Origin: Asticcacaulis taihuensis
GTDB lineage: Bacteria; Pseudomonadota; Alphaproteobacteria; Caulobacterales; Caulobacteraceae
Assembly: GCF_900100255.1 (NCBI RefSeq)
Contig: NZ_FMTS01000003.1
Coordinates: 62,001 to 126,000 of the forward strand
Length of the DNA stretch: 64,000 nt
Direction: 5' to 3'
The position numbers and the translations under genes are program-made. Below, piece after piece: positions 40 through 58,572 of the stretch. The first letter of the stretch is position 1. The number at the start of each line of letters is the position of its first letter. A model generated the notes under the pieces. The model searched no databases and had not been told where the DNA came from. It saw nothing but the letters and a program-made list of their open reading frames with translations.

Positions 40-52
40 GTATACAATATAC
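40..52. promoter_or_regulatory. GntR-type operator, copy 1
   Basis: GTATA-CAA-TATAC is a perfect 5-bp inverted repeat with a 3-base centre. It lies 28 bases upstream of the start codon of the minus-strand gene at the left edge and matches the palindrome found at six other places in the first 18 kb. Confidence 0.55.
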
Positions 53-80
53 ACTGAATTGCAAGTCCTAAAGCGCATAC

Positions 81-104
81 CCGCCGTAATCCGGCGGCGT
101 TTTT
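81..104 (+). terminator. Hairpin followed by T-run (terminator or attenuator)
   Basis: CCGCCG (81-86) pairs with CGGCGG (92-97) around the loop TAATC, and five T follow at 100-104. It has the form of a short rho-independent terminator on the plus strand, but no plus-strand gene ends here. It may end a short transcript or insulate the divergent promoters. Confidence 0.35.
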
Positions 105-336
105 GGGTGAAAAATATTTGCTTTTGACCGGATTTTTTTCGCAGAGCATATGAAAATCGCCCATCCTTTTATGATGGTTGCCTATGCGGTGGATATTTTT
201 TGTAAAATAATACAATGTGTTATGAATTGCGGCGGATTTCGTTCCTATATATGGAATGCGTGCTGGGCCTACCCTTGACCTGTTGCATATTGGATACATT
301 AAATTGTCATGTTATTAGATTTGTCACGATATTGCC

Positions 337-349
337 GTATATCGTATAA
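337..349 (+). promoter_or_regulatory. GntR-type operator, copy 2, with -35-like TTGAC
   Basis: GTATA-TCG-TATAA is identical to the copy at 5849-5861, and the flanking bases are also nearly identical. TTGAC follows at 356-360, about 13 bases from the operator centre, suggesting that the regulator binds just upstream of the -35 element of the receptor promoter. Confidence 0.6.
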
Positions 350-415
350 AATATTTTGACGATCTCCATTTTTCATGTCCACATCGTGTCATCAGTTTAT
401 CAACGGGGAATACAG

Positions 416-3205
416 ATGTTGACGACACGAGTGAGTAAAACCGTATTGCTGGCCGCCACCGGCATGGCCGCGGCCATGATCTGCGCGCCGGCCCTGGCGC
501 AGGAAGCGTCCGGCACGCCGGAACCGACCGCCGCCGAAAAGGCTGCCACGGCCAAGGCCGAAGCCCAGAGCGACGAGGTCATTATCGTCAAGGGGCTGCG
601 CAAGAGCCTGAAGACGGCGGTAGACCGTAAGCGCAATTCCAAGCAGATTGTTGATTCGATCGATGCCGAAGACGCCGGCAAGCTGCCGGACAATAACGTC
701 ATTGAAGCTCTGGCGCACGTCACCGGTGTTCAGATCACCCGCGCGCGTGGTGAAGGTGAAAGCCTGATGATCCGCGGTCAGGGCGATATCCAGACCACGC
801 TCAACGGCGCCCCGAACGCTTCCGGCGCTGGCCGTACGGCTTCGCTTAACGACATTCCGGCCGAACTGCTGAAGTCGGTGCAGGTCTACAAGACCCGCAG
901 CGCCGATCAGGTCGAAGGTGGTGTTGGTGGCACGGTCAACGTCGATCTGCGTCGTCCGCTGGACCTCAAGAAGGGATGGACTTTCGCCGGCAGCGTCCGC
1001 AATGTCTATGCCAATATCGGTAACACCGAGAGCCCCTACGCCTCGGCCCTGATCGCCAAGCGCTTCGATACCGGCATCGGCGAGATGGGCTTCCTGGTCA
1101 ACCTGTCCTACCAGGAAAACAATTATAACGAACAGTATGTCACCAGTGAAACCCCGGCGCTGTTCTGGTGCTGCGGCACACAGTGGGACAGCGTGCCCAA
1201 CAAGGACACTGACATCGCCATGTATCGCGCCCAGTACGGCGTCGAGTACGGCAAGGTCCGTCGTCCGGCGCTGAACGCCTCTTACCAGTGGCGCGTCAAT
1301 GAACAGCTTGACTTCGTTTTGGAAGCCTCTTCGTTCAACTCAAAGGAAAACCGCTCCTACAGCGCCCTGAATACCCGCATGAAGGACAGCCCAGGTGTCC
1401 TGTCAAATATCGTTTACGGCCCGGATGGTCACACGATCATTTCGATGACGGAAACTGACCCGAATCTGACCGACACGAACATCCTGCCTGTCGGCCCGAC
1501 TTCGCGTGATGACTTCAACAAGGCCACCAACAACCGCGTCAATTTCGAAGCGCATTGGCATAATGATCGTGCGACCGTGAATTTCGCCGTTTACCGCGAT
1601 GAGAACACCTTCGACAACCAGTGGGTCACGCAAACCCTGCGCCTGAATGGTCTTACCGGCTTCAATGTCGATTTCAATTCCGACAAGATTGAAGGCGGCG
1701 GTCCTTACGTCGAATATATCGGCGCCGACCCTTCCAACCCTGACGACTATGGCGTCAAGGAATGGGAAGACGGCAAGGCGTTTGAAAACAGCAATGAAAC
1801 TGTCTGGTCGGCTGACCTGACCTATCGTCTGAGCGACGACAAGTTCTTCCGTTCGGTCCAGATGGGCGTCCGCCATAGCGATCGCAACGTTGATCGTGCC
1901 TATGGCTATCGTTATGCTGGCTTCAACACGCCGCTGGCCATCGCCGACTTCCCCGGCGGCACAGGGCTGGAAGAAGTGCAGAGCGATACGGGCGGCGCGG
2001 CGACGCCGAGCTGGTACCGTATCTCGCGTGAAAGCCTGCTGGCCAATTATGATGCGATCCGTAACTATCTCTATACCGAGCGTGATTATGCGGGCGGTTC
2101 CGGCGACTGGAATAACGAGGTCGTCAATACCGAGCTGATGCAAGGCAGCTTCACGTCCACTGAAAAGACAGCAGCCATCTACGGCATTATTAATTACGGC
2201 TTCAAGGCCTGGAACATTCCGGTAGATGGTTCGATTGGTGTGCGTACGGTCCATACCTGGGGCGAAAGCATCTCCACTCAGCAGGCGGTCGGCAAGGCGC
2301 CGGATTATGCGGTCACGCCCACGCAGGTTGTGGCACCGTCTGACGGTACTGATGTCATGCCGAACGCCACGGCGATCGTTCACTTCACGCCGAAGGTGCA
2401 ACTGCGCCTGGGCTACTCGGTCAATATCCAGCGCCCGAACTTCATCGACGCCAGCTCGTTTGTCTTCTATGACACCAACGGCTGTAACTGCGGCTGGGGC
2501 GGCAACCCCGATCTGAAGCCTTACAAGGAAACCAACTACGACGCTTCGCTCGAATACTATTTCGGCCGTGGTGGTGTCCTGTCGGCGGCGGTTTACGACA
2601 AGAAATCGGATGGGTTCATCGTCTATGGTGCCACCAATCAGGTCTTTGACGGCGTAACCTATCGCATTGGCCGCCCGGTCAACACGGATAAGGGGGAATA
2701 CCAGGGCATCGAACTGACAGCTCAAGGCTTCTTCGACTTCCTGCCCTCACCGTGGAACAACTTCGGTGGCCAGGCGAACTTCACCTATAACAGCAAGGCC
2801 AATATCTACTACTCGCAGTACAATGGCTCGCCCATTACTCAGGAACAGATCGATACCATTCCGGGTATTTTCGATGCGCCGAACAACTCGAAAACGACCT
2901 ATAACCTGATGCTGTACTACGAGACTTCGAAGGTCAGCGCCCGTATCTCCTATAACCACCGCGATTTGTGGCGTGCGGGCCTCGACGGTTACTCGGCGCT
3001 CGGCTACAGCACCTATTTCGCAGCGACTTCTCGACTAGATGCGGCTTTCGACTATACGCCGGTCAAGTGGATGACGATTGCCCTGGAAGGCACCAACCTT
3101 CTGAACGACAATTCGAACACCTATTACGGGGCCAATCATCTGATCCCGCAAGGCGTCCGTGTTGCCGCCCGCACCGTCCAACTCAGCGCGCGTTTCCGCT
3201 ACTAA
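416..3205 (+). CDS. TonB-dependent receptor (Xanthomonas/Caulobacter type)
   Basis: This is an outer-membrane receptor for energized uptake of a substrate, probably an oligosaccharide given the neighbours. The 929-residue protein starts with a clear signal peptide ending in PALAQ. A plug domain follows (about residues 55-185) with the typical run LPDNNVIEALAHVTGVQITR and then MIRGQG. The rest is a long beta-barrel ending in RFRY with a C-terminal aromatic residue. The frame extends 20 codons upstream to 356, but I chose the ATG at 416 because GGGGAA lies about eight bases before it and the signal peptide begins there. A GntR-type operator lies at 337-349 and a bidirectional terminator follows the gene. 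The substrate cannot be told from sequence. Confidence 0.92.
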   Translation: MLTTRVSKTVLLAATGMAAAMICAPALAQEASGTPEPTAAEKAATAKAEAQSDEVIIVKGLRKSLKTAVDRKRNSKQIVDSIDAEDAGKLPDNNVIEALAHVTGVQITRARGEGESLMIRGQGDIQTTLNGAPNASGAGRTASLNDIPAELLKSVQVYKTRSADQVEGGVGGTVNVDLRRPLDLKKGWTFAGSVRNVYANIGNTESPYASALIAKRFDTGIGEMGFLVNLSYQENNYNEQYVTSETPALFWCCGTQWDSVPNKDTDIAMYRAQYGVEYGKVRRPALNASYQWRVNEQLDFVLEASSFNSKENRSYSALNTRMKDSPGVLSNIVYGPDGHTIISMTETDPNLTDTNILPVGPTSRDDFNKATNNRVNFEAHWHNDRATVNFAVYRDENTFDNQWVTQTLRLNGLTGFNVDFNSDKIEGGGPYVEYIGADPSNPDDYGVKEWEDGKAFENSNETVWSADLTYRLSDDKFFRSVQMGVRHSDRNVDRAYGYRYAGFNTPLAIADFPGGTGLEEVQSDTGGAATPSWYRISRESLLANYDAIRNYLYTERDYAGGSGDWNNEVVNTELMQGSFTSTEKTAAIYGIINYGFKAWNIPVDGSIGVRTVHTWGESISTQQAVGKAPDYAVTPTQVVAPSDGTDVMPNATAIVHFTPKVQLRLGYSVNIQRPNFIDASSFVFYDTNGCNCGWGGNPDLKPYKETNYDASLEYYFGRGGVLSAAVYDKKSDGFIVYGATNQVFDGVTYRIGRPVNTDKGEYQGIELTAQGFFDFLPSPWNNFGGQANFTYNSKANIYYSQYNGSPITQEQIDTIPGIFDAPNNSKTTYNLMLYYETSKVSARISYNHRDLWRAGLDGYSALGYSTYFAATSRLDAAFDYTPVKWMTIALEGTNLLNDNSNTYYGANHLIPQGVRVAARTVQLSARFRY

Positions 3206-3224
3206 GCGGAAACCAGCCTTGGGC

Positions 3225-3261
3225 AAAAAAACCCCGCTGGTTCGCCAGCGGGGTTTTTTTT
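3225..3261. terminator. Bidirectional rho-independent terminator
   Basis: A-run 3225-3231, stem CCCCGCTGG (3232-3240), loop TTCG, stem CCAGCGGGG (3245-3253), then T-run 3254-3261. It lies between the convergent ends of the receptor gene (3205) and the cupin-like gene (3272), and can serve both. Confidence 0.9.
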
Positions 3262-3271
3262 GTTCTGAACC

Positions 3272-4276
3272 TTAAAAACGTTTCGGGCCGCCGAGGAAGA
3301 ACGATTTGAGTTGCGTCATTTCCTGCAGGTTGAGGTCGGTATTGAAAGCGCCCCGGATATGTTTGGGCAGGTGGCCGGTCGGATCGCCTTCAAAGACAAA
3401 GTAATCCATCATTTCCCGCCACGCCCTGCGCTGTTCGTCCGGCATGGCGCGGAAGGCCAGACCGGCGATATGCAGGGCGGCCATGGGGTCGACCAGATCG
3501 GGGCGGGCATCGTTCCACCAGTAATTGACCAGCATATTCAGCGGGCCGGTGGTCTGGACATGGTGCCACCACAGGGGCGGGATAAACAGGCCGTCGCCCG
3601 GTTCGAGGCGGGCAGTCAGGGCGTGGTTTCGTGCCTGATCGAGTTGCGGGTAACGCGTCGGATCGGGGGCTTCCAGAGAGGCCATGCTGATGGGGACGCC
3701 GGCCGGAGAGCGATCGAGCGGACCGGGATAGAGGTTCGCGGTCTGATCGGGCGGGAAGAGGGTGAAGACCTTCTCGCCCGCCACGTGGACGGCGATATTG
3801 CTGGTGTAATCGAAATGGGTCTGGGTGCGCAGGGTATTGCCGATCCACAGGCGTGGCCGCACGCCGGAATCCAGCAGGGGCATGTCGAGGTCCGGCGCCA
3901 TGCCCGGCACGAAGCCATCGACCGGCTGGGCCTGGAGATAGACCGATTCATTTTGCGGCTGGCCTATGGTCGAGAGGCACCAGTCGATAATAAAGCTCAG
4001 CGGGCGGCCATAGGTCTTGTAGTTCAGGCCGGTCAGGTCATCATTATAGAAAAAGCGGCCTTCATGTTCTTTTGGCAGGACGGACGCCTTGACTGCGACA
4101 CCCGTGTCGTACTGGCGCAGATAGTCGCCGAGGGCCTTGGGAGAGGCATTGGCGGCCGCTACGGCCGGCCAGTGAGTGGCGAGCCCCTTGAGGATGACTG
4201 GCTGGCCGGAATAACGATTTTCGGCATCGAAAACGGCGCGATTGATCTGCTCGATCACGCGGACGGATTGGCTCAT
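3272..4276 (-). CDS. Cupin-like (JmjC/Cupin_8) protein
   Basis: This 334-residue protein has the features of the Cupin_8/JmjC-like fold, whose members are often Fe(II)/2-oxoglutarate oxygenases. Residues around THFDYTSNIAVHVAGEK hold the H-x-D metal pair, and the later stretch EPGDGLFIPPLWWHHV supplies the distal His and the cupin strand. The early PVILKGLATHWP is also typical of the family. There is no signal peptide, so it is cytoplasmic. It overlaps the halogenase stop codon by four bases (ATGA), so the two are translationally coupled. Such cupin/halogenase pairs recur beside TonB receptors in Caulobacterales and Xanthomonadales, but their shared substrate is not known to me. Confidence 0.8.
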   Translation of the reverse strand: MSQSVRVIEQINRAVFDAENRYSGQPVILKGLATHWPAVAAANASPKALGDYLRQYDTGVAVKASVLPKEHEGRFFYNDDLTGLNYKTYGRPLSFIIDWCLSTIGQPQNESVYLQAQPVDGFVPGMAPDLDMPLLDSGVRPRLWIGNTLRTQTHFDYTSNIAVHVAGEKVFTLFPPDQTANLYPGPLDRSPAGVPISMASLEAPDPTRYPQLDQARNHALTARLEPGDGLFIPPLWWHHVQTTGPLNMLVNYWWNDARPDLVDPMAALHIAGLAFRAMPDEQRRAWREMMDYFVFEGDPTGHLPKHIRGAFNTDLNLQEMTQLKSFFLGGPKRF

Positions 4277-5784
4277 GCCTTCACCAGGGCCGGAGAGTAG
4301 CAGGCTTTGGTGATATAGGCTTCGTGGCCGGGCATTGAATTGGCCAGTCCAGCCGTGCCTTCGCGGACGCGGTCCATCCGCCAGCGGAATTCATCCTCCG
4401 GCATCAGGTCGGCAACCGGGTGATAGGATTTCGGCATCAGCCCTTGCCCCGCCAGGACAGCGAACCAGCTCGCTTCCTTGAAGAGTTCGTTGGGTTTTAC
4501 GAGAGAGAGATTGTGCTGCGCGAAGCTTTCCAGCCGTGCCTTCAGGCTGTCAGGGATGTCCATATGCTTGCAGTAGGCCCAGAAGGGCGTGTCCTCGCGC
4601 TCGGTCACTTTGTAGTGGGCGATCAGGAAATCCTTCACATCGTCATAGGCGAAGAACATCTCGGCGTTGAAGCTGTTGCGCAGACTGTCGGTAATGCGGT
4701 CGCGCGGAAAGAAGCGGATCAGTTTCATGATCGCTTCCTGCACCAGGTAGATGGAGGTCGATTCCAGAGGTTCAAGGAAGCCGCTGGCCAGGCCCATGGC
4801 GATGACATTGCGGTTCCACTGCTTTTTGCGGTGGCCGGTCGTGAAGCGAATGACGCGCGGCTGTCCTTGTGGCTTGCCATCCAGCCGTTGCAGGATCAGG
4901 TCCATGGCCTTGTCTTCCGAGAGGTGGGATTCGCAGAAGACATAACCATTGCCGGTGCGATGCTGGAGCGGGATGCGCCATTGCCAGCCGGCTTCACGGG
5001 CCGTGGACATGGTATAGGGCGTGATGCCGCTGATCTTATCACATGGCACAGCCACGGCGCGGTTGCACGGCAGCCATTGCGACCAGTCTTCGTAACCGGT
5101 TTTCAGGGTCTGCTCGATCAGCAGGCCCCTGAATCCAGAGCAGTCGATGAACAGATCGCCGGCGATGGTCTGGCCGCTTTCGAGCGTAACCGAGGCGATA
5201 TCGCCGCTTTCCGGATGCTGGCTGACGCCGATGATCTTGCCCTCTTGCCGCACCACGCCGCGCGCCTCTGAGTAGCGGCGCAGGAATTTGGCATAGAGCG
5301 AGGCGTCGAAATGGAAGGCGTAGTTGACGTTGGGCGCCTTCGGATTGATCTCGCTCATGCGGCCGAAACGGTTCATGCGCGCGGCGATGGTCTGCGGATT
5401 GAACAGGCCGAAATCACCGTTCCCGCCTGCTAGATGATAGCGCATCCAGTAGTGGGTGAAGTTGACATTCATATCGACGCCATAGACGCCGAACGGGTGG
5501 AAATAGTCGCTGCCCTGGCGTTTCCAGTCGACGAAGCGGATGCCGAGCTTGAAGGAGGCGTTGGTTGCCTTCATGAACTCGTTCTCGTCAAGTTCGAGCA
5601 GCTTATTGAATTCCTGGATGGTGGGGATGGTGGCCTCGCCAACGCCGACCGTGCCGATCTCGTCCGACTCGATCAGGGTGAGGCTGTACTTTTGCGTACC
5701 GAAGACCTTGGAAAGCGCCGATGCCGCCATCCAGCCGGCCGTGCCGCCGCCCACAACCACGATCTTACGAATAGAGTCCGCCAT
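4273..5784 (-). CDS. Flavin-dependent tryptophan-halogenase-family protein
   Basis: This 503-residue protein keeps every hallmark of flavin-dependent halogenases. The FAD-binding GGGTAGW motif is near residue 12. The catalytic lysine is at residue 79 (in NASFKLGIRF), the same number as in PrnA. The WxWxIP motif is at 267-272, and the Glu-Ser pair is in LEPLEST (341-342). It is therefore probably an active monooxygenase/halogenase that depends on a separate flavin reductase, and none is encoded nearby. It heads a two-gene minus-strand operon with the cupin-like gene. The promoter lies in the 5785-5926 gap, which holds operator copy 3. Known relatives linked to TonB receptors act in vitro on indoles, but the natural substrate here is unknown. 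Confidence 0.9.
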   Translation of the reverse strand: MADSIRKIVVVGGGTAGWMAASALSKVFGTQKYSLTLIESDEIGTVGVGEATIPTIQEFNKLLELDENEFMKATNASFKLGIRFVDWKRQGSDYFHPFGVYGVDMNVNFTHYWMRYHLAGGNGDFGLFNPQTIAARMNRFGRMSEINPKAPNVNYAFHFDASLYAKFLRRYSEARGVVRQEGKIIGVSQHPESGDIASVTLESGQTIAGDLFIDCSGFRGLLIEQTLKTGYEDWSQWLPCNRAVAVPCDKISGITPYTMSTAREAGWQWRIPLQHRTGNGYVFCESHLSEDKAMDLILQRLDGKPQGQPRVIRFTTGHRKKQWNRNVIAMGLASGFLEPLESTSIYLVQEAIMKLIRFFPRDRITDSLRNSFNAEMFFAYDDVKDFLIAHYKVTEREDTPFWAYCKHMDIPDSLKARLESFAQHNLSLVKPNELFKEASWFAVLAGQGLMPKSYHPVADLMPEDEFRWRMDRVREGTAGLANSMPGHEAYITKACYSPALVKA

Positions 5785-5848
5785 TTTGTCCGCCTTATGC
5801 TTTGTCGTTTAAGGCTTATGGCCCTGCGGTGCGGATGTCAATTCTGCG

Positions 5849-5861
5849 GTATATCGTATAA
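5849..5861 (+). promoter_or_regulatory. GntR-type operator, copy 3, with -35-like TTGAC
   Basis: GTATA-TCG-TATAA lies in the divergent promoter between the halogenase (minus) and the lectin-like gene (plus). TTGAC follows at 5867-5871, 12 bases from the operator centre, pointing to the plus-strand gene. The block is almost identical over about 27 bases to the one in front of the first receptor, so both promoters are likely bound by the same factor. Confidence 0.6.
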
Positions 5862-5926
5862 AATATTTGACACATGTCCTAAAGCGTGCGGAATAATGTC
5901 GGACAATAATGACTGGGGGTTATGAC

Positions 5927-6481
5927 ATGCGGATAGCGACGATTTTGACCGTCTGTGCAGGTATTGCCTTGGCGGGGGCTGGGCATTCCGCCCTGGCCGA
6001 AACGGTTACGGTCAAGGTGCCAGGCACGGCCATGCCGTGGATCATCAAGAAGAAAAACCCCGACCTGCCTTATGGCAAGGCGGACGGCACGGCGCCGGCG
6101 GTGGCGCCGCTGAAACTGACAGCCGGCATGTCATTGCAGATGACGGCCACCGGCTCGACCACCACGGTGGCGGGCGGCGGCAGTTTCGATCCCGGCGGGC
6201 AGGCCGAGTTCATCTGTGACGATCATCTGGGTGGTTCGGGTATGCCGTTTCCCAGCATCTATATGAGCCACGGCTTCTATCCGGTGCATCTCAACGAACT
6301 GGTGGCCATCTTTACCGATGGCAAGGGCCGGAGGGTCAAGTCGCCGTTTCCGGTCGGCACCGGCCTGACCATTACCGTGCCGGAAGGCGCGGAGGCGATC
6401 CAGTTCGGCCTGAATGACGATATCTACGCTGACAACAGCGGCGAAATCGACGTGACTATCACCCCGGCGGCGGCACAATAA
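5927..6481 (+). CDS. Secreted small protein resembling PA-IL (LecA) lectins
   Basis: The 184-residue protein has a signal peptide ending in SALAE and is otherwise a single beta-rich domain. Its C-terminal stretch NDDIYADNSG (about 163-172) resembles the calcium- and galactose-binding loop of Pseudomonas PA-IL (NDVPGTYGNNSG), and it sits just before a final strand as in that lectin. I infer a periplasmic or secreted sugar-binding protein. The call rests on one motif read by eye. The ATG at 5927 is chosen over 5909 because GGGGG lies eight bases before it. The S9 peptidase follows after 23 bases, so the two are probably co-transcribed. Confidence 0.6.
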   Translation: MRIATILTVCAGIALAGAGHSALAETVTVKVPGTAMPWIIKKKNPDLPYGKADGTAPAVAPLKLTAGMSLQMTATGSTTTVAGGGSFDPGGQAEFICDDHLGGSGMPFPSIYMSHGFYPVHLNELVAIFTDGKGRRVKSPFPVGTGLTITVPEGAEAIQFGLNDDIYADNSGEIDVTITPAAAQ

Positions 6482-6504
6482 CTCAGAAACGGCGAGATTT
6501 CTCC

Positions 6505-8784
6505 ATGCGTCCTTTGTCCTTTGCGCTTGCCGGCGGCATTTCGCTGCTGGCCCTGTCCACCATTGCCCGCGCGGAAATCGCGCCGATCGCCGAACGTTAT
6601 GCGACGGCGGAAGCTTATTTGGCGGGCAAGACCGCTGAACTGGTCACCGATCTCGACCTGCGCGCCCGGTTCGTGGCCGGCGGCGCCAAGGTGCTTTATC
6701 GTCATGGCACGAAAGGGCAGGGAACAATCACTCTGGCCGATGCCGCCACGGGCCAGACCACGGAACTGACGACTGAGGCCGCCTTGCAGCCGCTGCTGAC
6801 GCCGGTAATGGGCGCGGATGCCAAGGGGCCGTTCGATGTCTCGCCGGAAGACTATGACGCCGACAAGCGCATCCTGACGCTCAATTCCGGTGGCAAGAAA
6901 CTGATCTATAACATGGCGGCCAATACGGTCACCGTCGCACCGGTCGAGACGAAGGCCGCCGACGAGGGCGTGGTCTCGCCGGATGGCCTCTACAAGGTGA
7001 TCCACAAGGGTTACGACCTGGCCCTGGTCGAGATCGCTACGGCTAAGGAAACGGCCCTGACCGGCGACGGCAATTATGATCAGCGCTATGGCATGAACTA
7101 TCCGATGTTCGCTGACATGGTCGAGGCCAATACCGAAACCCCGCCGATGCCGGTCAGCGTGCAGTGGTCGCCGGATTCGAAGCAGATTCTGACCTACCGT
7201 CTGGACCGCAACGGCAGCTATATCTGGCATGGCGTCCAGCCCAATCCGCCGGGCAGCCAGTTGCCGCGCCATTTCGACTATGTTTACCCGACCGCCGGCG
7301 CCGAGAAGGTGCCGCAGTTCGTGCCGGTGGTGATCGATGTGGCGGCCGCGCTCAAGGGCACCGTGGCGCCCAAGGTGCTGAACGTCCCTTCAGACTCCAT
7401 GCTGTGGCCGGGCGATCCGAATTTCGGCTGGAACAAGGACAAGATCATCTACCAGTGGACCAAGCGCGGTTATGGAGAACTGGCCCAGTATGAGATCGAC
7501 CCGGTCCGCAATGTGGCGACTGTCAAGGTGCGCGAAGCGGTCAAGCCGCTGGTCACGGTCACCTCGTCCTCGATCCGCCCCGTCCCGGAACTGGATGGTA
7601 GCCTGGTCATTTCCGAGCGCACCGGCTGGGCGCAGCTCTATTTCGTCGGCAAGGCCGATAAGCCCGAAGGCGGCAAGGCGCTGACAAGGGGCAACTGGGA
7701 AGTTACCGATATCGTCCGCGTCGACGACAAGGCGAAGTCGCTGCTGATCACCGGCATCGGCCGCGAGGCTGGCGTCAATCCGTACTTCTCCAGCCTCTAC
7801 AGCCTGACGCTCGACGGCGCAATCCGCAACCTGACGCCGGAACCGCTCGACCACGACGTCAGCGTGTCGGAAGATGGCAAGACCTTCATCGACCGTATGT
7901 CTAGCCCGACCGTACCGACCCGCACCCTGCTGCGCAGCACAACCGACGGCCATATCATCGCTGAACTTGGCAAGGCTGATCCGTCGGCCCTGCTGGCCAG
8001 CGGCTTTACCCCGCCGGAGCCTTTCAGCACCCTGGCCGATGACGGCAAGACCATGCTTTACGGCATGATCTTCCGGCCGAAGAATTTCGATGCCACCCGC
8101 AGCTATCCGGTGATCGAATATGTCTATACCGGCCCGACGACGCATGTGATTGCCGAAGGCTATGGCCGCAATATCCGCAATCCGGCCGAGGGCATGGCGC
8201 AGCTTGGCGCCATCGTGGTTGAAATCGATGCGCGCGGCACCTCGCAGCGCGGTCAGGCTTTCCGCCTGCCGGCCTATCAGAACCTCGGCGAGGTCGGCCT
8301 GGATGACCATATCTGGGTGCTGAAGGCAATGAAGGCGAAGTACAGCTATTTCGACCTCGATCGTGTCGGCGTGTTCGGCCATTCGGCCGGCGGTTATGAC
8401 GCCGCGCGCTTCATCCTGCGCCGGCCGGATTTCTACAAGGTGGCGGTGGCCAATTCGGGCAATCAGGATGAGCGTCTCGACAAGGCCTGGTGGCCGGAAG
8501 TCACCATGGGCATCGCCGATGACGCGACCTGGGAGAAGAACTCCAACATTCCGGTGGCCAAGAACCTCAAGGGCCATCTGCTGCTGACCCATGGCGATAT
8601 CGACGACAATGTGCCGGTGGCGGCGACCCTGCGCCTCGATGCGGCCCTGGTGGCGGCCAACAAGCCGCACGAGCTGGTCATCTTCGCCAACCGCACACAC
8701 AACTCGATCGGGCCCTACTACTGGCGCAAGCACATGGACTTTTTCACCCAGTACCTGCTGGACGAGACGCCACCGGCGTTCTAA
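6505..8784 (+). CDS. S9 family prolyl oligopeptidase / DPP-IV-like peptidase
   Basis: The protein of 759 residues has a signal peptide ending near ARAEI, an N-terminal DPP-IV-type beta-propeller, and a C-terminal alpha/beta-hydrolase domain. The catalytic triad is readable: Ser627 in GHSAGG, Asp700 in HGDIDDNVP and His732 in NRTHNS. The numbering is close to human DPP-IV (630/708/740). It should remove dipeptides from proline-containing peptides in the periplasm. It lies in an operon behind the lectin-like gene and under operator copy 3. A peptidase inside a glycan-uptake region is odd and suggests a glycopeptide or cell-wall-protein substrate, which is inference only. Confidence 0.88.
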   Translation: MRPLSFALAGGISLLALSTIARAEIAPIAERYATAEAYLAGKTAELVTDLDLRARFVAGGAKVLYRHGTKGQGTITLADAATGQTTELTTEAALQPLLTPVMGADAKGPFDVSPEDYDADKRILTLNSGGKKLIYNMAANTVTVAPVETKAADEGVVSPDGLYKVIHKGYDLALVEIATAKETALTGDGNYDQRYGMNYPMFADMVEANTETPPMPVSVQWSPDSKQILTYRLDRNGSYIWHGVQPNPPGSQLPRHFDYVYPTAGAEKVPQFVPVVIDVAAALKGTVAPKVLNVPSDSMLWPGDPNFGWNKDKIIYQWTKRGYGELAQYEIDPVRNVATVKVREAVKPLVTVTSSSIRPVPELDGSLVISERTGWAQLYFVGKADKPEGGKALTRGNWEVTDIVRVDDKAKSLLITGIGREAGVNPYFSSLYSLTLDGAIRNLTPEPLDHDVSVSEDGKTFIDRMSSPTVPTRTLLRSTTDGHIIAELGKADPSALLASGFTPPEPFSTLADDGKTMLYGMIFRPKNFDATRSYPVIEYVYTGPTTHVIAEGYGRNIRNPAEGMAQLGAIVVEIDARGTSQRGQAFRLPAYQNLGEVGLDDHIWVLKAMKAKYSYFDLDRVGVFGHSAGGYDAARFILRRPDFYKVAVANSGNQDERLDKAWWPEVTMGIADDATWEKNSNIPVAKNLKGHLLLTHGDIDDNVPVAATLRLDAALVAANKPHELVIFANRTHNSIGPYYWRKHMDFFTQYLLDETPPAF

Positions 8785-8800
8785 GCGCCGGCGGCAGCCG

Positions 8801-9541
8801 TCAGTAGTCTTGCACCGTGGGCCGGAAGAGGATTTCGTTGATATCGACATCCTCAGGCTGGCTGATGGCGAAGGCGACGCATCTGGCAAAGGAATCGGCC
8901 GGAATGGCCCATTTGTCATAACGGCCGCGGACGGCGGCGGCCATATCCGGTTCGGTGACGCTGGCCGGCAGTTCGGTATCCACCGCCCCCGGCGATATGA
9001 CGGTCGAGCGGATATTGTAGGGCTTCACCTCCTGGCGCAGGCCCTCCGAAATGGCGCGGACCGCGTGCTTGGTGGCGGCATAGACCACGCCGCCGGGGCC
9101 GACCTTATGGCCGGCCACCGAAGACACATTGATGATCTGGCCGCTCTTCTGCGCCTGCATGTGGGGCAGGGCGGCGGCGATGCCATAAAGCACGCCCTTG
9201 ATATTGACGTCGATCATCTGATCCCATTCATCGATCCTCAAGCGATCGAGCAGGGATTGCGGCATGATGCCGGCATTGTTGATGATCACATCGATGCGGC
9301 CATGCAGCGCGATCGCCCGGTCGACGAGGGCCCGGACCTGATCGGCCTGGGTGACATCCATCTGCACGATGGCGCCTTCGGGCAGGCCAAGCTCCGCGGC
9401 CAGGGCTTGCAAGCGGTCGAGGCGGCGCGCGCCTAACACGACCCTGGCGCCTTGTTCGCTGAGCAGCCGGGCGGTGGCTTCGCCCAGTCCGCTGGAGGCG
9501 CCGGTAATGACGACGACCTTGTTGATTATGCCTTGTGTCAT
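8801..9541 (-). CDS. Short-chain dehydrogenase/reductase (SDR)
   Basis: This classical SDR has 246 residues. The cofactor motif TGASSGLG is at 13-20, NNAG at 88-91, and the catalytic set is Ser140/141, Tyr154 and Lys158 (YAATK). The residues after the second beta strand (GARRLDR) favour NADP(H). It is cytoplasmic and its substrate is unknown. It is the last gene of a minus-strand operon with an aldo/keto reductase and a cupin, 11 bases after the former, and has a good ribosome binding site (GAGGAG). The three genes together suggest interconversion of a carbonyl/alcohol compound such as a sugar derivative. Confidence 0.88.
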
Positions 9542-9552
9542 GGGGAAACTCC

Positions 9553-10978
<1,426 letters not shown>

Positions 10979-11006
10979 AGGTTACAGCCTCCAACAGGAG
11001 GTAGTC

Positions 11007-11921: not shown

Positions 11922-11963
11922 CTTCGGGCTTCGCAGATCAATACCTATCCGGCAGCATACTTG

Positions 11964-11976
11964 CAAAATCGTATAA
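11964..11976 (+). promoter_or_regulatory. Degenerate GntR-type operator, copy 4, with TTGAC
   Basis: The right half TCG-TATAA matches copies 2 and 3 and the left half (CAAAA) does not. TTGAC follows at 11984-11988, 14 bases from the centre, as in the other copies. No plus-strand protein gene follows. The promoter points into the possible small-RNA region that ends at the terminator at 12255-12297. Confidence 0.4.
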
Positions 11977-12009
11977 TTTATATTTGACGCGCGGCGCGAA
12001 CAGTGGTTT

Positions 12010-12297
12010 AAATTAGTCAGTCAATTAGCCTCCACCATTCCTCCCTGGAAAGGCGCGCTGTTGGCGAACGTCTTTGCGTCGTTCTGTATGGATGGATTGA
12101 ATTTCGTCCGGCCTGCCAGAGGTTCTCCGGCCTTTCCGCGCAGGTTTCCGGACGACGTGCTTGACGTCTCTGATCTGGTTCCGGATCACCCTTTCCGATG
12201 TCCGCCCCGGTCTCACTCCCGTGACCGGCCTCGCGCATCGGGACAAACTTTCAGACGCCTGTCGCTACGGTCCCCCCTCCGCGACAGGCGTTTTTTT
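12010..12297 (+). ncRNA. Candidate small RNA between the esterase and the GntR gene
   Basis: The gap 11922-12295 has no credible protein gene but is built like a transcription unit: an operator half-site and TTGAC at 11984-11988, an AT-rich TTTAAATTAG at 12007-12016 in -10 position, and a strong terminator at 12255-12297. Inside is another stable stem, CCGGTC (12207-12212) with GACCGG (12223-12228). A transcript of very roughly 270 bases is predicted. The 5' end is approximate. Open frames here lack ribosome binding sites and normal composition. Confidence 0.4.
12255..12297 (+). terminator. Strong rho-independent terminator
   Basis: ACGCCTGTCGC (12255-12265) pairs perfectly with GCGACAGGCGT (12281-12291), and the T-run reaches 12297. 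It abuts the stop codon of the minus-strand GntR gene (12296), but the T-run points to termination of plus-strand transcription. Confidence 0.85.
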
Positions 12298-12961
12298 ATG
12301 CGCTTTTCGCCGTCTTTTCCGTTTCGAACTGCTTGCGCAGGTCATCGAGCGTCATGGCGATATGCTGGCGCATCAGGGCCGAGACCTCATCCGACCTGCC
12401 GGCCGACCATAGCTCCAGCAGGGCGGAATGTTCATTATGGGCGCGGTCGTCACGCCCGGCCGGTTCCAGATGTTTACCGACATAGCGTTCGCAGATGATA
12501 TTCAGGCGCTCGATGATCTGGATGGTGACCTGGCGGTGCAGCGGGCGGATCAGCGCCATGTGGAAAGCGCGGTTCAGCCGGCCCACCTGGGTCTTGTCGC
12601 CGCTAACCGCCACATCCAGTTCATCGAGCGCGGCGCGGGCGGCTTTCCTGTCGGCGTCCGTTGCCACCTTGGCGGCTTCGCCCACGGCATCGGGTTCGAG
12701 CTTCAGGCGCAGGGCATAGACCTCTTCGACCTCGTCGGCATTCAGCGGCCGCACGAAGAAGCCGCGATTGGCCTGGGAAATGAGCAGCCCTTCCTGCTCC
12801 AGGCGGGCGAGGGCCTCGCGCAGGGGAATCTTGCTGACCCCCAGTTCGGCGGCCAGTGCGTCCTGGCGGATGGCGGTATCCACCGGGATCCGGCCGGAAA
12901 TGATGCGGTCGCGGACCAGCGAGAAAATCTGCTCGGAGAGGGTTTGAACCACGATGGACAT
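12296..12961 (-). CDS. GntR-family transcriptional regulator (FadR/FCD subfamily)
   Basis: The protein has 221 residues. The N-terminal winged helix (about 8-72) carries the GntR signature SKIPLREALARLEQEGLL. The C-terminal FCD helical domain (about 78-210) has the typical spacing of polar ligand residues, including HSALLELW and a late His in MRQHIAMT. FCD regulators sense small carboxylates or sugar acids, often with a metal. A copy of the GTATA-NNN-TATAA palindrome lies in its own promoter (12986-12998). Other copies precede both TonB receptors and the hydrolase genes, so it is the best candidate for the regulator of the whole first region, probably as a repressor. The ligand is unknown. 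Confidence 0.9.
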   Translation of the reverse strand: MSIVVQTLSEQIFSLVRDRIISGRIPVDTAIRQDALAAELGVSKIPLREALARLEQEGLLISQANRGFFVRPLNADEVEEVYALRLKLEPDAVGEAAKVATDADRKAARAALDELDVAVSGDKTQVGRLNRAFHMALIRPLHRQVTIQIIERLNIICERYVGKHLEPAGRDDRAHNEHSALLELWSAGRSDEVSALMRQHIAMTLDDLRKQFETEKTAKSA

Positions 12962-12985
12962 GAGAGGCGCCCCGAATCTTTGCGT

Positions 12986-12998
12986 TTATAAGTTATAC
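12986..12998 (-). promoter_or_regulatory. GntR-type operator, copy 5 (autoregulatory)
   Basis: TTATA-AGT-TATAC reads GTATA-ACT-TATAA on the minus strand, the same arms as copies 2 and 3. It lies 24 bases upstream of the GntR start codon, where it would allow the protein to control its own gene. Confidence 0.55.
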
Positions 12999-13110
12999 CG
13001 GCAGTAAGGCATTCCTTTTGGCCCCTGACAAGTCCATCCACGGTTGTTTGGTTTTGTTTCACAGCTATCGGGGTGGCGTTTTAGCCATTTATTGCTATTG
13101 TCAGACTATT

Positions 13111-13123
13111 GTATACCGTATAA
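13111..13123 (+). promoter_or_regulatory. GntR-type operator, copy 6
   Basis: GTATA-CCG-TATAA lies 39 bases upstream of the GH43 start codon in the gap between the divergent GntR and GH43 genes. The TTGAC seen beside other copies is missing here (TCTGAC at 13143-13148), so the promoter may lie upstream of, or overlap, the operator. Confidence 0.6.
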
Positions 13124-13162
13124 CGCTTATGTGGGCGAATAATCTGACAAAAGAGGCCATTG

Positions 13163-14758
13163 ATGACCCGGAAATCTACCAAGCTTCAACACGGCCTTAC
13201 CTCCCTGGCCTGCGCCCTGCCGCTGCTGATGGCCTGCGCACACGCCGAGGGTAATTGGCAGACGGTCCATTCGGCCGGCAACCCGATCATATCCGACGGC
13301 CAGAACTTCACGACCGATCCGGCGCCGCTGGTGGCCGATGGCAAACTCTATATCCTGACTGGCCGCGATACCGCGGCGCCCGGCGTCAATGACTTCATCA
13401 TGCCGGAATGGCAGATGTTGGAGACGGAAGATCCAGCCTCGCACACCTGGAAGTATAATCCGCATTTCGTGCGCCCGGAAGCCGTTTTCAAATGGGCGAC
13501 GCCGGCGCGCGCCTATGCCGGTCAGATCGTGCAGGGGCCGGACAAGCGCTATTACATGTACGCGCCGGTCGTGGAGGCCGGCAGTAAGAACAAAGACCCG
13601 TTCGCCATCGGCGTGGCGGTCTCCGATACCCCGACGGGCCCGTGGACCGACGCCCATCCCGCCGGGCCGATCGTCTCGCAATCCTACCCGGTGAAGAACG
13701 ACATTGAAAACATCGACCCGACCGTGCTGGTCGATGACGATGGCCGCATCTATCTCTACTGGGGCACGTTCGGCCGTCTCAAAGCGGTCGAATTGGAAAA
13801 TGACATGGTCACCTTCAAGGGCCAGCCGGTCGATATCCACGGCCTGAAGGGTTTCTTCGAGGCGCCCTGGCTGTTCAAGCGCAACGGCACCTATTACCTG
13901 ATGTATGCCGGCAATGCCGCCGGGCCGGAATCCGACTGCACCGAGGCGGTCTATTATGCCTGCCAGGCCTATGGCACGGCCAGGTCACCGCTCGGCCCCT
14001 GGACCTATCAGGGCGTGCTGCTCGATCCGGTGTCCTCTACCACCTCGCATGGCGGCATCGTGCGGTACAAAGGCAAGTGGTATCTGGCCTATCACAATGC
14101 TGATGCGCCGGGCGGCGACCATTTCCGCCGCAGCGTCTCGATCGACGAAGTGACCTGGGACGACAGCATCACCCCGGCCCTGATCGACAAGGTGATCCCG
14201 ACCCATCCGCCGGCACCGCCGCCTGCGCCTACGCGCAATATTGCCCCGGCCGCGCGCATCGTCGCCTCCAATTCGCCGGTGCCGGTGCAGTACTGGATCA
14301 AGGCGCTCAATGATGGCAAGGTTCATGAAAACCCGCTACCGCCCGATACCTGGGGCACCTGGTCGCCGAACAATCCGGCGCAGCAGTGGGTGGTCTATCA
14401 GTGGGAACAGCCCCTGAAATTCAACGGCTCGCGCATCCGTTTCTGGAACGACCAGCCGGCGGGCTCCGGCGTCGGCGTGGCGGCGCCGAAAGCCTGGCAT
14501 CTCGAATACTGGAAGGAGCAAAAATGGCTCCCGGTGCCCAATGCCAGCGGCTACGGCACCTCGACGGACGCCTTCAATGACGTGACTTTCGATACGGTGG
14601 AAACGCGCTGCCTGCGCGCCGTCTTCGACGCCTCGACCGATGGTAAGACCTACGCCGCCGTCGCCGCCCAGGAATGGGAGGCGCTCTATCCGAAGCCGGT
14701 TCTGGTCGAGCCGGCGGACACGGATATTCCGGCGTCACCGGTCTGTGCCGCCGAATAA
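13163..14758 (+). CDS. GH43 glycosidase with C-terminal discoidin-like domain
   Basis: An exported GH43 beta-propeller enzyme of 531 residues, probably an alpha-L-arabinofuranosidase, arabinanase or beta-xylosidase. The three catalytic acids are Asp52 (TTDPAPLV), Asp185 (NIDPTVLVDDDG) and Glu233 (FFEAPWLF). A proline-rich linker near 350 leads to a beta-sandwich F5/8C-like domain (about 360-515) that is homologous to the N-terminal domain of the next gene. The signal peptide contains LLMAC, so it may be a lipoprotein. I start at the ATG 13163 because AAGAGG lies six bases upstream; the TTG at 13160 is poorly spaced. It leads a GH43-GH127 operon controlled by operator copy 6. Confidence 0.88.
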   Translation: MTRKSTKLQHGLTSLACALPLLMACAHAEGNWQTVHSAGNPIISDGQNFTTDPAPLVADGKLYILTGRDTAAPGVNDFIMPEWQMLETEDPASHTWKYNPHFVRPEAVFKWATPARAYAGQIVQGPDKRYYMYAPVVEAGSKNKDPFAIGVAVSDTPTGPWTDAHPAGPIVSQSYPVKNDIENIDPTVLVDDDGRIYLYWGTFGRLKAVELENDMVTFKGQPVDIHGLKGFFEAPWLFKRNGTYYLMYAGNAAGPESDCTEAVYYACQAYGTARSPLGPWTYQGVLLDPVSSTTSHGGIVRYKGKWYLAYHNADAPGGDHFRRSVSIDEVTWDDSITPALIDKVIPTHPPAPPPAPTRNIAPAARIVASNSPVPVQYWIKALNDGKVHENPLPPDTWGTWSPNNPAQQWVVYQWEQPLKFNGSRIRFWNDQPAGSGVGVAAPKAWHLEYWKEQKWLPVPNASGYGTSTDAFNDVTFDTVETRCLRAVFDASTDGKTYAAVAAQEWEALYPKPVLVEPADTDIPASPVCAAE

Positions 14759-14790
14759 CGACTTAGAAACAATCAAAAAGAAGAAATGCC

Positions 14791-17616
14791 ATGTCCAGGA
14801 AATTTATCGCCGAAACCCATTTTTGCAAGGCTGAGTGCGGCTGCAATGCCGTCAGCCGCCGCAGCGTATTCGCTGGTGCCGCCGGTGTAGCCCTGATCGG
14901 CGCCTCCGGCTTTGCCTTTGCGGCGCGCGCTAACGAAACATCCGTCAACCTGGCGAAAGTCGCCACCCCGTCAGCCTCCTTCCATTCGGGGGACACCCGC
15001 GTGGCGGCCCTGAACGACGGCCACACGCCCGCCAATTCTGCCGACGCTGAAAAAGGCATGTACGGCAACTGGCCCAGGACCGGCGCCGAATGGGTGCAGT
15101 ATGACTGGAGCCAGCCGGTGAGCCTCAACAAGGTCGCCGTTTACTGGTGGGTGGACGGGCAGGGGGTTGGCGCGCCGAAAGCCTGCCGCGTGCTTTACTG
15201 GGACGGCAAGACGTTCGTGCCGGTCACAAACATCAATGGCCTGGGCGTGACGAAGGACGCCTTCAACATCACCACTTTCGATACCGTGAAGACCGACAAG
15301 CTGCGTCTGGAAATCGTTTCGGACGGCACGCTGTCCACCGGTATTCTGGAATGGCAGGTATGGAGCGTCGGGCCCGTGCCGGCCTTTGCCCCGGTCGTGG
15401 CGGCGGGCATTGACCGTACGGTCGTCATGGGCGGCAAGACCTGGCTGATGGGCAAGACGGATACATTGACCGCTGGCGATACGGGAAGCCTGTGGCGCAA
15501 GGTCTCCGGCCCCGGCGATGTCACCTTCGCCGACGCCCTGTCGCCCGAAACCACCGCCACCGTCTCGGCGCCGGGCACCTATGTGCTGGAACTGACCGCC
15601 CATGCCGGCGGCCAGGTGTCAAGCTCGCGCCTGCGTCTGAACGCACAGGCCGCCCCGCCGCCGCAGCGTCTCGATGTCGTCTACACGAAGAAATACACCA
15701 TCGATAGCCCGCTGTGGAATGCGCGCGCAAAGGCGCTGATCGTCAACTGGATTCCGCATGTCATCGACTATTGCGAGCGTACCGACCTCAAGATTGGCAA
15801 TGGCGGCATCGACAATTTCATCGAGGCCGGTAAGGCCAACCGTGGCGAACCGCATGGGCCGCACAAGGGCTATGTCTTCTCCAACGCCTGGGTGGTCGAA
15901 AACGTCGAGGCCATGTGCATCGCCCTGATGGTCGATCCGAAGGGCGATACCGAGATGATCAAGGCGCAGGACAAGATGCGCGCCACGCTGGAGCGCTGGA
16001 TTCCGATCATCCTGGCGGCTCAGGAAAGTGATGGCTACCTGCAAACCGCCAAGACCCTGGCGGCGCCCGGCGAATGGGACGAGCGCTGGTCACCCGATCA
16101 TCGCGGCAATCACGAAGGCTATATCGCTGGTTACTTCATCGAATCGGCCATCAACCACTACACCCTGACCAATGGCCAGGATCTGCGCCTCTATAACGCC
16201 GCCAAGAAACTGGCCGATTGCTGGGTGGCCAATATCGGGCCGGGCAAGAAGGAATGGTTCGACGGCCACCAGGAGATGGAGCAGGCGCTTGTCCGTTTCG
16301 GCCGCTTCGTCAATGACGAGGAGGGCAACGGCCGTGGCGATTCCTATATCGCTTTGGCCAAGTTCCTGCTGGAATCGCGCCGCGGCGGTCAGGAATATGA
16401 CCAGAGCCACCTGCCGCCGGTCAAACAGTATGAGGCCGTGGGCCACGCCGTGCGTGCCGTCTACTTCTATTCCGGCATGGCCGACATCGCCGCCGAAACC
16501 GGCGATGTCGACTACCAGAGCGCGGTCGCCTCGCTGTGGGACAATATGGTCAACCGCAAATATTACGTCACCGGCGGCATTGGGTCGGGCGAGACCTCGG
16601 AAGGCTTCGGGCCGGACTACTCTTTGCGCAACGGCGCCTATTGCGAATCCTGTTCGAGCTGCGGCCTGATCTTCTTCCAGTACAAGATGAACCTGGCCTA
16701 TCACGACGCCAAATATGCCGATCTCTACGAGCAGACCATGTATAATGCCCTGCTCGGAGGAATCGATCTGGATGGGAAGAGCTTCTGCTACACCAATCCG
16801 CTGGTCAATACCGAGCGCACCCTGTGGCACGTCTGTCCGTGCTGCGTCGCCAATATCCCGCGCACGCTGCTGATGATCCCGACCTGGACCTATGTGAAGG
16901 ACGCGCAGGGGTTATATGTCAATATGTTCGTCGGATCGACCATCACGGTCGAGAAGGTGGCCGGTACCGATGTGGAGATGGTGCAGAAGACCGACTATCC
17001 GTGGAATGGCCAGGTGACGATCACCGTCAATCCGAAAGAAGCCAAGACCTTCGCGCTGCGCGTCCGTATCCCCGACCGCACCACCAGCGAACTCTATACC
17101 ACCGTTCCGGTGGTGAAGGGCGTCAAGGTCTTCAAGGTCAATGGCAGGGCGGTGACGCCGCGGATCGTCAAGGGCTATGCCGTCGTTGAACGCGAATGGA
17201 AGGCCGGCGACACCATCGAACTGGAACTGCCGATGGCGCCGCAGCGTATCTACGCCGATCCGAAGATCGAGGCCGATCGCGGCCTGGTGGCGCTGGGCTA
17301 TGGGCCGCTGGTCTATAATGTTGAACTGGCCGACCAGACAAGCATCACCCAACCGCTGGGCAAAGCCGCACTCAAGGCCGAATGGAAGCCTGACCTGCTG
17401 GGCGGCATCATGGCCCTGAGCGGCAAGTGGGCCGATGGTTCGGCCATGCTGGCCGTGCCCAACTATGCCCGCATGAATCGCATCGGCGGTCCTGAAGAAA
17501 TCGGTGCCGGCGATGTCGATTACGCACCGGGCACGGAGCAGGCGTCACTCGCCGAGGTCGGTCCGCGCCGGCACTTCACCGGATTGCAATCCCAGGTGTG
17601 GATCAGGCAGGCGTAA
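14791..17616 (+). CDS. GH127 beta-L-arabinofuranosidase-type enzyme, multidomain, Tat-exported
   Basis: The protein of 941 residues starts with a Tat-type signal (SRRSVFAGAAG). It then has an F5/8C-like sandwich (about 48-190), an Ig-like domain (about 200-295) and a DUF1680/GH127 catalytic domain to the end. By analogy with HypBA1, the zinc and catalytic cysteines are Cys684-Cys685 (CPCC) with Glu619 and Cys621, and the acid/base is Glu604 (SEGFG). It should release beta-linked L-arabinofuranose or a similar sugar in the periplasm. A short cysteine-rich tract, FCKAECGC, precedes the twin arginines, which is unusual. It starts 32 bases after the GH43 gene and precedes the second receptor. Confidence 0.87.
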   Translation: MSRKFIAETHFCKAECGCNAVSRRSVFAGAAGVALIGASGFAFAARANETSVNLAKVATPSASFHSGDTRVAALNDGHTPANSADAEKGMYGNWPRTGAEWVQYDWSQPVSLNKVAVYWWVDGQGVGAPKACRVLYWDGKTFVPVTNINGLGVTKDAFNITTFDTVKTDKLRLEIVSDGTLSTGILEWQVWSVGPVPAFAPVVAAGIDRTVVMGGKTWLMGKTDTLTAGDTGSLWRKVSGPGDVTFADALSPETTATVSAPGTYVLELTAHAGGQVSSSRLRLNAQAAPPPQRLDVVYTKKYTIDSPLWNARAKALIVNWIPHVIDYCERTDLKIGNGGIDNFIEAGKANRGEPHGPHKGYVFSNAWVVENVEAMCIALMVDPKGDTEMIKAQDKMRATLERWIPIILAAQESDGYLQTAKTLAAPGEWDERWSPDHRGNHEGYIAGYFIESAINHYTLTNGQDLRLYNAAKKLADCWVANIGPGKKEWFDGHQEMEQALVRFGRFVNDEEGNGRGDSYIALAKFLLESRRGGQEYDQSHLPPVKQYEAVGHAVRAVYFYSGMADIAAETGDVDYQSAVASLWDNMVNRKYYVTGGIGSGETSEGFGPDYSLRNGAYCESCSSCGLIFFQYKMNLAYHDAKYADLYEQTMYNALLGGIDLDGKSFCYTNPLVNTERTLWHVCPCCVANIPRTLLMIPTWTYVKDAQGLYVNMFVGSTITVEKVAGTDVEMVQKTDYPWNGQVTITVNPKEAKTFALRVRIPDRTTSELYTTVPVVKGVKVFKVNGRAVTPRIVKGYAVVEREWKAGDTIELELPMAPQRIYADPKIEADRGLVALGYGPLVYNVELADQTSITQPLGKAALKAEWKPDLLGGIMALSGKWADGSAMLAVPNYARMNRIGGPEEIGAGDVDYAPGTEQASLAEVGPRRHFTGLQSQVWIRQA

Positions 17617-17704
17617 GCCGGCCTGATCAGCCCGCATCATTGCATGGCATTCAGCTACCACCGAATGTGGCGATAACGTGACAGTGTGTCAAACTTTGCA
17701 TTTT

Positions 17705-17717
17705 GTGTATCGTATAC
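17705..17717 (+). promoter_or_regulatory. GntR-type operator, copy 7, with -35-like TTGAC
   Basis: GTGTA-TCG-TATAC lies 63 bases upstream of the second receptor start. TTGAC follows at 17732-17736, about 21 bases from the centre, roughly eight bases further than in copies 2-4. Confidence 0.5.
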
Positions 17718-58489: not shown

Positions 58490-58572
58490 ATTTTGGCGAT
58501 AGGCGTCGCAGTCGTCGCTCGCGGGTATCAAGTATACCCGCGTCGCTAGCCGGCTAGCCTCTCATCCAAAAT
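58490..58572. repeat. Nested palindromic element after purD
   Basis: ATTTTGG (58490-58496) pairs with CCAAAAT (58566-58572). Inside are CGCGGGTAT (58520-58528) with ATACCCGCG (58534-58542), and the perfect palindrome GCTAGCCGGCTAGC (58545-58558). It lies between the convergent purD and the 58605 gene and may act as a terminator or be a dispersed repeat. Confidence 0.55.

Follow-up and report, generated by a model that had tools for sequence, protein, structure and literature searches.

In a 64,000-nucleotide stretch of the genome of Asticcacaulis taihuensis (contig NZ_FMTS01000003.1, positions 62,001 to 126,000; hereafter the window), a short palindrome recurs upstream of genes for a GntR-type regulator, TonB-dependent receptors, glycosidases, a halogenase and a peptidase. 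This palindrome very likely acts as the regulator's switch site, and would define one regulon, laid out at two places in the genome, for stripping, importing and eating hydroxyproline-rich plant glycoproteins. The full explanation, in which the GntR/FCD protein encoded at 12296-12961 and its paralogue on another contig (C8) use the sites as operators, repression is released by hydroxyproline and the genes serve plant glycoprotein use, appears probable. The motif, its clustering, the paralogue, the gene families, conservation and co-occurrence were read from the sequence; binding, repression, ligand and substrate we infer.

Motif copies in the window

The window has four exact copies of GTATANNNTATAA, at 337, 5849 and 13111 and, on the minus strand, at 12986; 100 dinucleotide shuffles gave none. 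With at most one mismatch, the symmetric form GTATANNNTATAC is found at eight places, against 0.17 expected and a shuffle maximum of 2 (n = 100): 40 (exact), 337, 5849, 11971, 12986, 13111 and 17705, plus an eighth at 58525. The palindromes are real and beyond chance. The original prediction had listed seven copies of GTATA-NNN-TATAA; all seven lie within one mismatch of GTATA-N3-TATAC, but only four are exact for the TATAA form, and the copy placed at 11964-11976 does not fit there, the match lying seven bases further on, at 11971-11983. That all seven are intergenic agrees with a reading of the likely start codons, although mechanical open reading frames (ORFs) overlap some of them. The eighth place (58525-58537) was rejected as an operator: it sits inside a GC-rich hairpin (GCGGGTAT...ATACCCGC), which is perhaps a terminator, and looks unrelated.

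Predicted operator 1 (GTATACAATATAC; 40-52, no strand assigned) lies 28 bp upstream of a leftward gene for a GH127/GH146-type beta-L-arabinofuranosidase, and is kept in the sister genome G017 and in other genomes of the genus. Predicted operator 2 (GTATATCGTATAA; 337-349, plus strand) precedes a TonB-dependent receptor (likely ATG at 416), with TTGAC at +19, and predicted operator 3 (also GTATATCGTATAA; 5849-5861, plus strand) occupies the divergent promoter of the halogenase and a secreted protein, with TTGAC at +18 (+20 on the other strand). Predicted operator 4 (GTATAATTTATAT; 11971-11983, plus strand) abuts TTGACG at 11984, and 26 bases identical to this region precede a DUF5695 gene on C8. 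Predicted operator 5 (GTATAACTTATAA; 12986-12998, minus strand) lies 25 bp before the start of the regulator gene, so that the site expected upstream of GntR itself is in place. Predicted operators 6 (GTATACCGTATAA; 13111-13123, plus strand) and 7 (GTGTATCGTATAC; 17705-17717, plus strand) precede the GH43 gene and the second TonB-dependent receptor, respectively. The predicted grouping of the GntR gene, both receptors, the halogenase/cupin pair, the secreted protein/peptidase pair and GH43/GH127 under a common motif holds for these positions.

A second island with a paralogous regulator

The assembly comprises 3.97 Mb in 19 contigs, with the window at C10:62001-126000. Exact GTATANNNTATAM occurs at 15 distinct places genome-wide, 11 of them in two clusters, C10:62040-79717 in the window and C8:1012388-1037117, which together cover 42.4 kb or 1.07% of the genome (binomial 2.7e-19, an optimistic value because the cluster borders were drawn from the sites themselves). 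With up to one mismatch there are 40 places, against 47 for a reversed-pattern control; the clusters account for 17 of the 40 (C10, 7; C8, 10, including two overlapping pairs). The genome-wide scan that had been proposed, carried out here with patterns, thus brings out clustering in two islands, but the one-mismatch form has no genome-wide excess, and a lone match of this kind elsewhere is no evidence of a site.

Within the C8 cluster, a site precedes the gene for a GntR/FCD paralogue of 89% identity. Because this island carries the same motif together with a paralogous regulator, the regulon is not the single compact one originally proposed. Genes scanned in the C8 island encode a TonB-dependent receptor, a cupin_8 protein, a major facilitator superfamily transporter, a GH127/GH146-type enzyme, two DUF885 proteins and a GH43 glycosidase. 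These are joined by an M24 peptidase, a flavin adenine dinucleotide (FAD) oxidoreductase, an amino-acid permease, a DUF5695 protein and a peptidase of the dipeptidyl peptidase IV (DPP-IV) type, and by an alpha-galactosidase, an Ldh_2 reductase, a proline-racemase-family enzyme and a DHDPS-family enzyme. The racemase-family protein scores above the NCBIfam cut-off for 4-hydroxyproline epimerase (542 vs 376 bits), and members of the FAD oxidoreductase, DHDPS, Ldh_2 and M24 families surround it. Hydroxyproline epimerases and dehydratases have been described with relatives of D-amino-acid oxidase, DHDPS and malate/lactate dehydrogenase 2 as their neighbours (PMC4113996).

Relatives of the regulator and of the motif

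A search of named genomes for relatives of the regulator gave 73 loci, the nearest from Asticcacaulis. By best-labelled tblastn matches at 1e-15 and any identity, these 73 loci contain DHDPS in 53 cases, an epimerase in 44, a permease in 44, an FAD oxidoreductase in 38, M24 in 33, DUF885 in 28, the GH127/GH146 type in 23 and Ldh_2 in 22. Motif counts were restricted to the 66 loci with a regulator of at least 49% identity, some of them short (L093-L099, at most 44%, were dropped). Here the motif with at most one mismatch has 128 matches (117 merged places) vs 1.8 in shuffles, none of them inside a matched gene and 116 at most 350 bp upstream of one. Sorted by nearby gene, with a divergent promoter counted twice, the sites go, among others, to DHDPS (41), FAD oxidoreductase (33), GH127/GH146 (22) and GntR (18). 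The motif is present in 45 of the 66 loci, namely 40 of the 43 with an epimerase (at least 60% identity) vs 5 of the 23 without. At two named Asticcacaulis loci (L032 and L033), some of the window-type genes lie within the hydroxyproline cluster. Residues N130, H134, H178 and H200 of the FCD domain, which we take to bind metal, are invariant in all 18 aligned sequences.

At several loci (L027-L030, L039, L044, L045 and others) a second GntR protein, 52-58% identical, stands beside the first. A plasmid search with the regulator covered 1463 records and gave two matches at 60-80% identity. A DUF5695 protein stands under an operator in several relatives (e.g. L017:7079-9910); a sequence search for a solved relative of this protein found none.

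Within the genus (25 genomes), the regulator is present in 21 genomes (in G015 as a contig-edge fragment only) and the epimerase in 20, and both are absent from the same four. Exact motif counts on both strands, set against the reversed control, come to 276 vs 102 over the 21 regulator-bearing genomes and to 13 vs 21 over the other four; the genomes are related, and such counts are not independent trials. Nineteen of the 25 genomes have a homologue of the window halogenase (at least 69% identity); the four genomes without the regulator all lack one. The genus is rich in tryptophan-halogenase-type genes, with up to 18 matches per genome at 1e-150.

G005, G009 and G011 carry the GH127/GH146, receptor, halogenase and DPP-IV genes in a single island together with GntR and the hydroxyproline genes, and sites stand at the corresponding promoters. 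Of the 14 other genomes with full site listings (G016-G024 are not among them), nine repeat the spaced triplet of sites 40, 337 and 5849 exactly: G001, G003, G005-G009, G011 and G014. In seven of the nine, the triplet and the epimerase are no more than about 31 kb apart; in G006 and G007 they are far apart. These two genomes have one GntR copy each, located elsewhere, and their window-type locus (19 kb fetched) lacks GntR yet retains sites and a DHDPS gene, which suggests that this locus may be controlled in trans. Both GntR copies are present in the sister genome, G017. The stretches fetched from it cover six of the window sites (all but 17705) and its C8-type cluster short of the receptor end; all six sites are kept, and the C8-type cluster has sites too.

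Proposed mechanism, substrate and comparison with known systems

In the proposed mechanism, without inducer a dimer of the regulator would sit on the GT-AT-AC core (consensus ~tcGTATACga) and on a flanking half-box 7 bp away, blocking promoters from a position close to the start or directly beside the -35 TTGAC. Hydroxyproline, or an early breakdown product, would bind the FCD domain and cause the repressor to release the DNA. Both islands would then be co-expressed, providing outer-membrane receptors with the halogenase/cupin, transporters, prolyl-type peptidases and glycosidases that take off arabinose and galactose, along with an epimerase, an FAD dehydrogenase and a DHDPS-type deaminase for the 4-hydroxyproline pathway. 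From gene context alone, the inducer is likely hydroxyproline or a product of it.

Extensins and arabinogalactan proteins (AGPs) are major plant wall glycoproteins. A hydroxyproline-rich glycoprotein of one of these kinds is the most likely substrate, as the enzyme families suggest. An arabinosidase set of GH43 with GH127 or GH146 is present, the assignment to GH127 or GH146 being made by nearest solved structure only: 6ex6, 4qjy and 3wre/3wkw for the window GH127, and 5opj and 8k7x for the C8 GH127/GH146-type enzyme. The latter two we take to be GH146, the family names being drawn in part from PMC10850190. Members of GH146 and GH127 remove arabinose from hydroxyproline (PMC10850190; PMC6085000). 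The glycosidases therefore point to plant hydroxyproline-rich glycoprotein, although these families also act on other arabinose polymers.

Alternatively, the regulon might serve free hydroxyproline or peptides and arabinan separately, joint control not being aimed at hydroxyproline-rich glycoprotein; one GH146 member does act on both arabinan and AGPs (PMC10850190). This alternative we consider unlikely, though it is the strongest competitor: characterised GH146 enzymes free arabinose from Ara-Hyp (PMC10850190), and in several genera GH127/GH146-type and hydroxyproline genes have operators in common (22 near-gene counts).

Proteobacterial HypR regulons resemble the system described here in having a GntR regulator, autoregulation in many genomes and hypE/hypO/hypD-type genes, and in some gammaproteobacteria they include TonB receptors, prolyl peptidases and collagenases (PMC5343134). 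The A. taihuensis islands share the predicted sites before hydroxyproline-catabolism genes and the regulator, but add glycosidases, a halogenase and receptors, and the regulator is duplicated over two islands. In Sinorhizobium meliloti, whose record is unannotated, the protein taken as HypR was recognised from its gene neighbours, which encode DHDPS, Ldh_2, aldehyde dehydrogenase, FAD oxidase and epimerase. Both it and the window regulator have a GntR helix-turn-helix and an FCD domain, with 27% identity over 145 aa. Searched against the A. taihuensis genome, it matches the two copies at 8.8e-9 and 1.3e-8 and a third GntR protein at 2.1e-8, an ambiguous result. No site within one mismatch of GTATA-N3-TATAC occurs in a 20-kb S. 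meliloti stretch (L103), where TTGTCGACAA, read by eye, stands on both sides of the gene in place of a GTATAC-based operator. The regulator may thus work like HypR, but orthology to the Sinorhizobium protein is unproven because of the low identity, the ambiguous reciprocal matching and the different operator.

HypR of Streptomyces coelicolor is likewise a GntR/FCD protein, and represses L-hydroxyproline genes together with a putative collagenase; it differs in its operator, CTNTGC(A/C)ATGTCAC, and the portion of the report available mentions neither glycosidases nor TonB receptors (PMC6608401). The HypAA/HypBA1/HypBA2 sets of Xanthomonas and Bifidobacterium similarly apply GH43 and GH127/GH146 enzymes to hydroxyproline-linked arabinose, but hydroxyproline catabolism is not mentioned in the available portions of their descriptions, and the Xanthomonas operon is upregulated by HrpX (PMC6085000; PMC10850190). 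E. coli NanR is partly alike, being a GntR-type repressor with repeated GGTATA-type boxes, but it controls different genes (PMC8012715); the window regulator scores 36.1 bits with the NCBIfam NanR model, below its cut-off of 260. In the open-access literature searched, which leaves out most subscription journals, we found no bacterial regulon that treats the sugars and the hydroxyproline of such glycoproteins as one nutrient.

More broadly, we tentatively propose, with somewhat less than even confidence, a dedicated hydroxyproline-rich-glycoprotein system of Caulobacterales and Sphingomonadales, in which hydroxyproline would signal for import, glycan removal, peptide cleavage and catabolism through a hydroxyproline regulator of unproven orthology to HypR, with its own GTATAC operator. 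In A. taihuensis this system would comprise two islands, duplicated cross-acting repressors, a halogenase and perhaps a small RNA. The common operator offers a proposed setting for the halogenases, the DUF5695 and DUF885 proteins and the TonB receptors, and the inducer and the cross-talk of the two paralogous regulators become directly testable.

Operator form and promoter phasing

FadR-type operators follow the rule TKGT-N2/3-ACMA with an extra half-box 7-12 nt from the centre, and Suvorova et al. describe a HypR core with GT and AC two bases apart (PMC4494728). For comparison, 11 sites from A. taihuensis and 89 from relatives were aligned on GTATAC. The right flank is the only part of these sites not selected by the motif search, and in the relatives its next three positions are G (0.64), A (0.78) and T (0.60). 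The sites, with a GTATAC core, a box on the left and a conserved GA on the right in the 89 relatives' sites, are compatible with the FadR rule. The lone GTATA-N3-TATAA palindrome of the original prediction is a real repeated element, but the aligned sites are better described by a FadR-type GT-AT-AC core accompanied by a half-box at its side, and this reading replaced the lone-palindrome register.

The TTGAC noted earlier at 12-14 bases after three copies is confirmed when counted from the motif centre at 337, at 5849 and in the former 11964 register. Over 318 oriented flanks, TTGAC begins at +13 (10 times) or at +18 to +20 (12 times) from the motif start, vs 0-4 times at other single offsets, with the reservation that orthologous promoters are not independent. 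The phasing would fit blocking of the -35 box. The same phasing would also suit an activator or a dual regulator, with operators just upstream of the -35 TTGAC activating and those nearer the start repressing. We think this rather improbable, slightly more so than separate use of the two nutrients: an operator abutting the -35 box is also consistent with repression by occlusion, and the HypR proteins of both S. meliloti and S. coelicolor are reported to be repressors, the latter with one promoter whose activity falls in the mutant (PMC5343134; PMC6608401).

Further alternatives and points of tension

The original prediction had proposed sugar acids as the compounds to test in binding assays. 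A GntR protein of the UxuR/ExuR kind, sensing a sugar acid and governing a pectin or hemicellulose side-chain system, would agree with the GH43, GH127 and TonB receptor genes, which suit plant-polysaccharide loci, and with the short-chain dehydrogenase/reductase (SDR) and aldo-keto reductase of the window locus. The DHDPS family moreover includes sugar-acid enzymes (matches below cut-off), and the GTATAC core resembles sugar-acid FCD operators. Such a signal is nevertheless very unlikely because the regulator's relatives adjoin hydroxyproline-catabolism genes, and it was discarded on these neighbourhoods and on gene content: among the proteins scanned in both islands none was assigned to uronate or aldonate breakdown, and no NCBIfam regulator model reached its cut-off. 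Least credible of all is that the sites are AT-rich promoter elements (-10/UP-like) alike by chance, for although several are AT-rich and run into or border on promoter-like sequence, and genome-wide the one-mismatch motif does not outnumber its control, they cluster in 1.1% of the genome, are kept across genera upstream of the same genes and show no excess in the four genomes lacking the regulator.

Several observations weigh against a hydroxyproline-responsive glycoprotein regulon as proposed here. Among the 66 related loci, 21 have no motif match, many of these being Sphingomonas loci with the regulator beside a permease, and in only 15 does a motif lie at most 300 bp upstream of the regulator. 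The excess of the exact motif over the reversed control is small in some genomes with the regulator (G008, 16 vs 13; G002, 14 vs 11; G001, 7 vs 5). Gene context is the sole basis for assigning the ligand, and the GH127/GH146, GH43 and alpha-galactosidase enzymes also suit other arabinose polymers. The scheme gives no clear role to the halogenase, the DUF5695 protein or the possible small RNA, and it has no place for the SDR, aldo-keto reductase and cupin genes at 8801-10978, which also lack a site. Finally, an alpha-ketoglutarate-semialdehyde dehydrogenase (hypH) was not found at 1e-40, in a search that covered the S. meliloti type only and had no positive control.

Other candidate sites, a possible small RNA and the window genes

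Outside the two clusters lie 23 one-mismatch places. All but C8:1045733 and window position 58525 were checked for ORF cover, and 15 of these 21 are covered by an ORF of 90 aa or more, a cover that is common by chance in such DNA. The neighbours of six intergenic-looking or leading outside candidates were scanned, and only C16:230858 looks plausible. There (L135, position 2859), an operator-like GTATACTTTATGC stands near the start of a GH2 (beta-galactosidase-type) gene, and a mechanical ORF also covers the site. This place is possibly a third regulon locus.

Downstream of predicted operator 4, at 11984-12298, a promoter-like TTGACG fused to the operator is followed by about 280 nt without a clear gene and, last, by a terminator-like stem. 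A possible small RNA was placed at 12020-12298 (plus strand; ends estimated by eye), with the terminator-like stem at 12254-12290 and a T run. It has a weak Rfam match to ar14 (27.1 bits vs a gathering threshold of 58.8); a search of the genome for the ar14 family was silent everywhere, as were its controls. A similar stretch occurs in 2 of the 25 genus genomes, A. taihuensis itself and the sister (93% identical). A small RNA under control of the regulator is possible.

At the left edge of the window, the GH127/GH146-type arabinofuranosidase gene (minus strand) probably starts at position 12, judging from an ATG and Shine-Dalgarno sequence at 10-24, and runs leftwards out of the window; its longest mechanical ORF extends beyond site 40. 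The first TonB-dependent receptor (416-3205, plus strand) has Pfam barrel and plug domains and matches TIGR01782, and is followed on the minus strand by the Cupin_8 protein (3272-4276) and the flavin-dependent, tryptophan-type halogenase (4273-5784). The small protein at 5927-6481 (plus strand) has a signal-like N-terminus and no family found; its earlier description as a lectin finds no support in Pfam, in a PDB sequence search or in a usable model, the structure model (mean predicted local distance difference test score of 30) having been set aside. Next to it lies the DPP-IV/prolyl-oligopeptidase-type peptidase (6505-8784, plus strand). Beyond the GntR/FCD regulator (12296-12961, minus strand), the plus strand encodes the GH43 glycosidase (13163-14758), the GH127-type enzyme (14791-17616), which has a weak N-terminal F5/8-type match, and the second TonB-dependent receptor (17781-20771).

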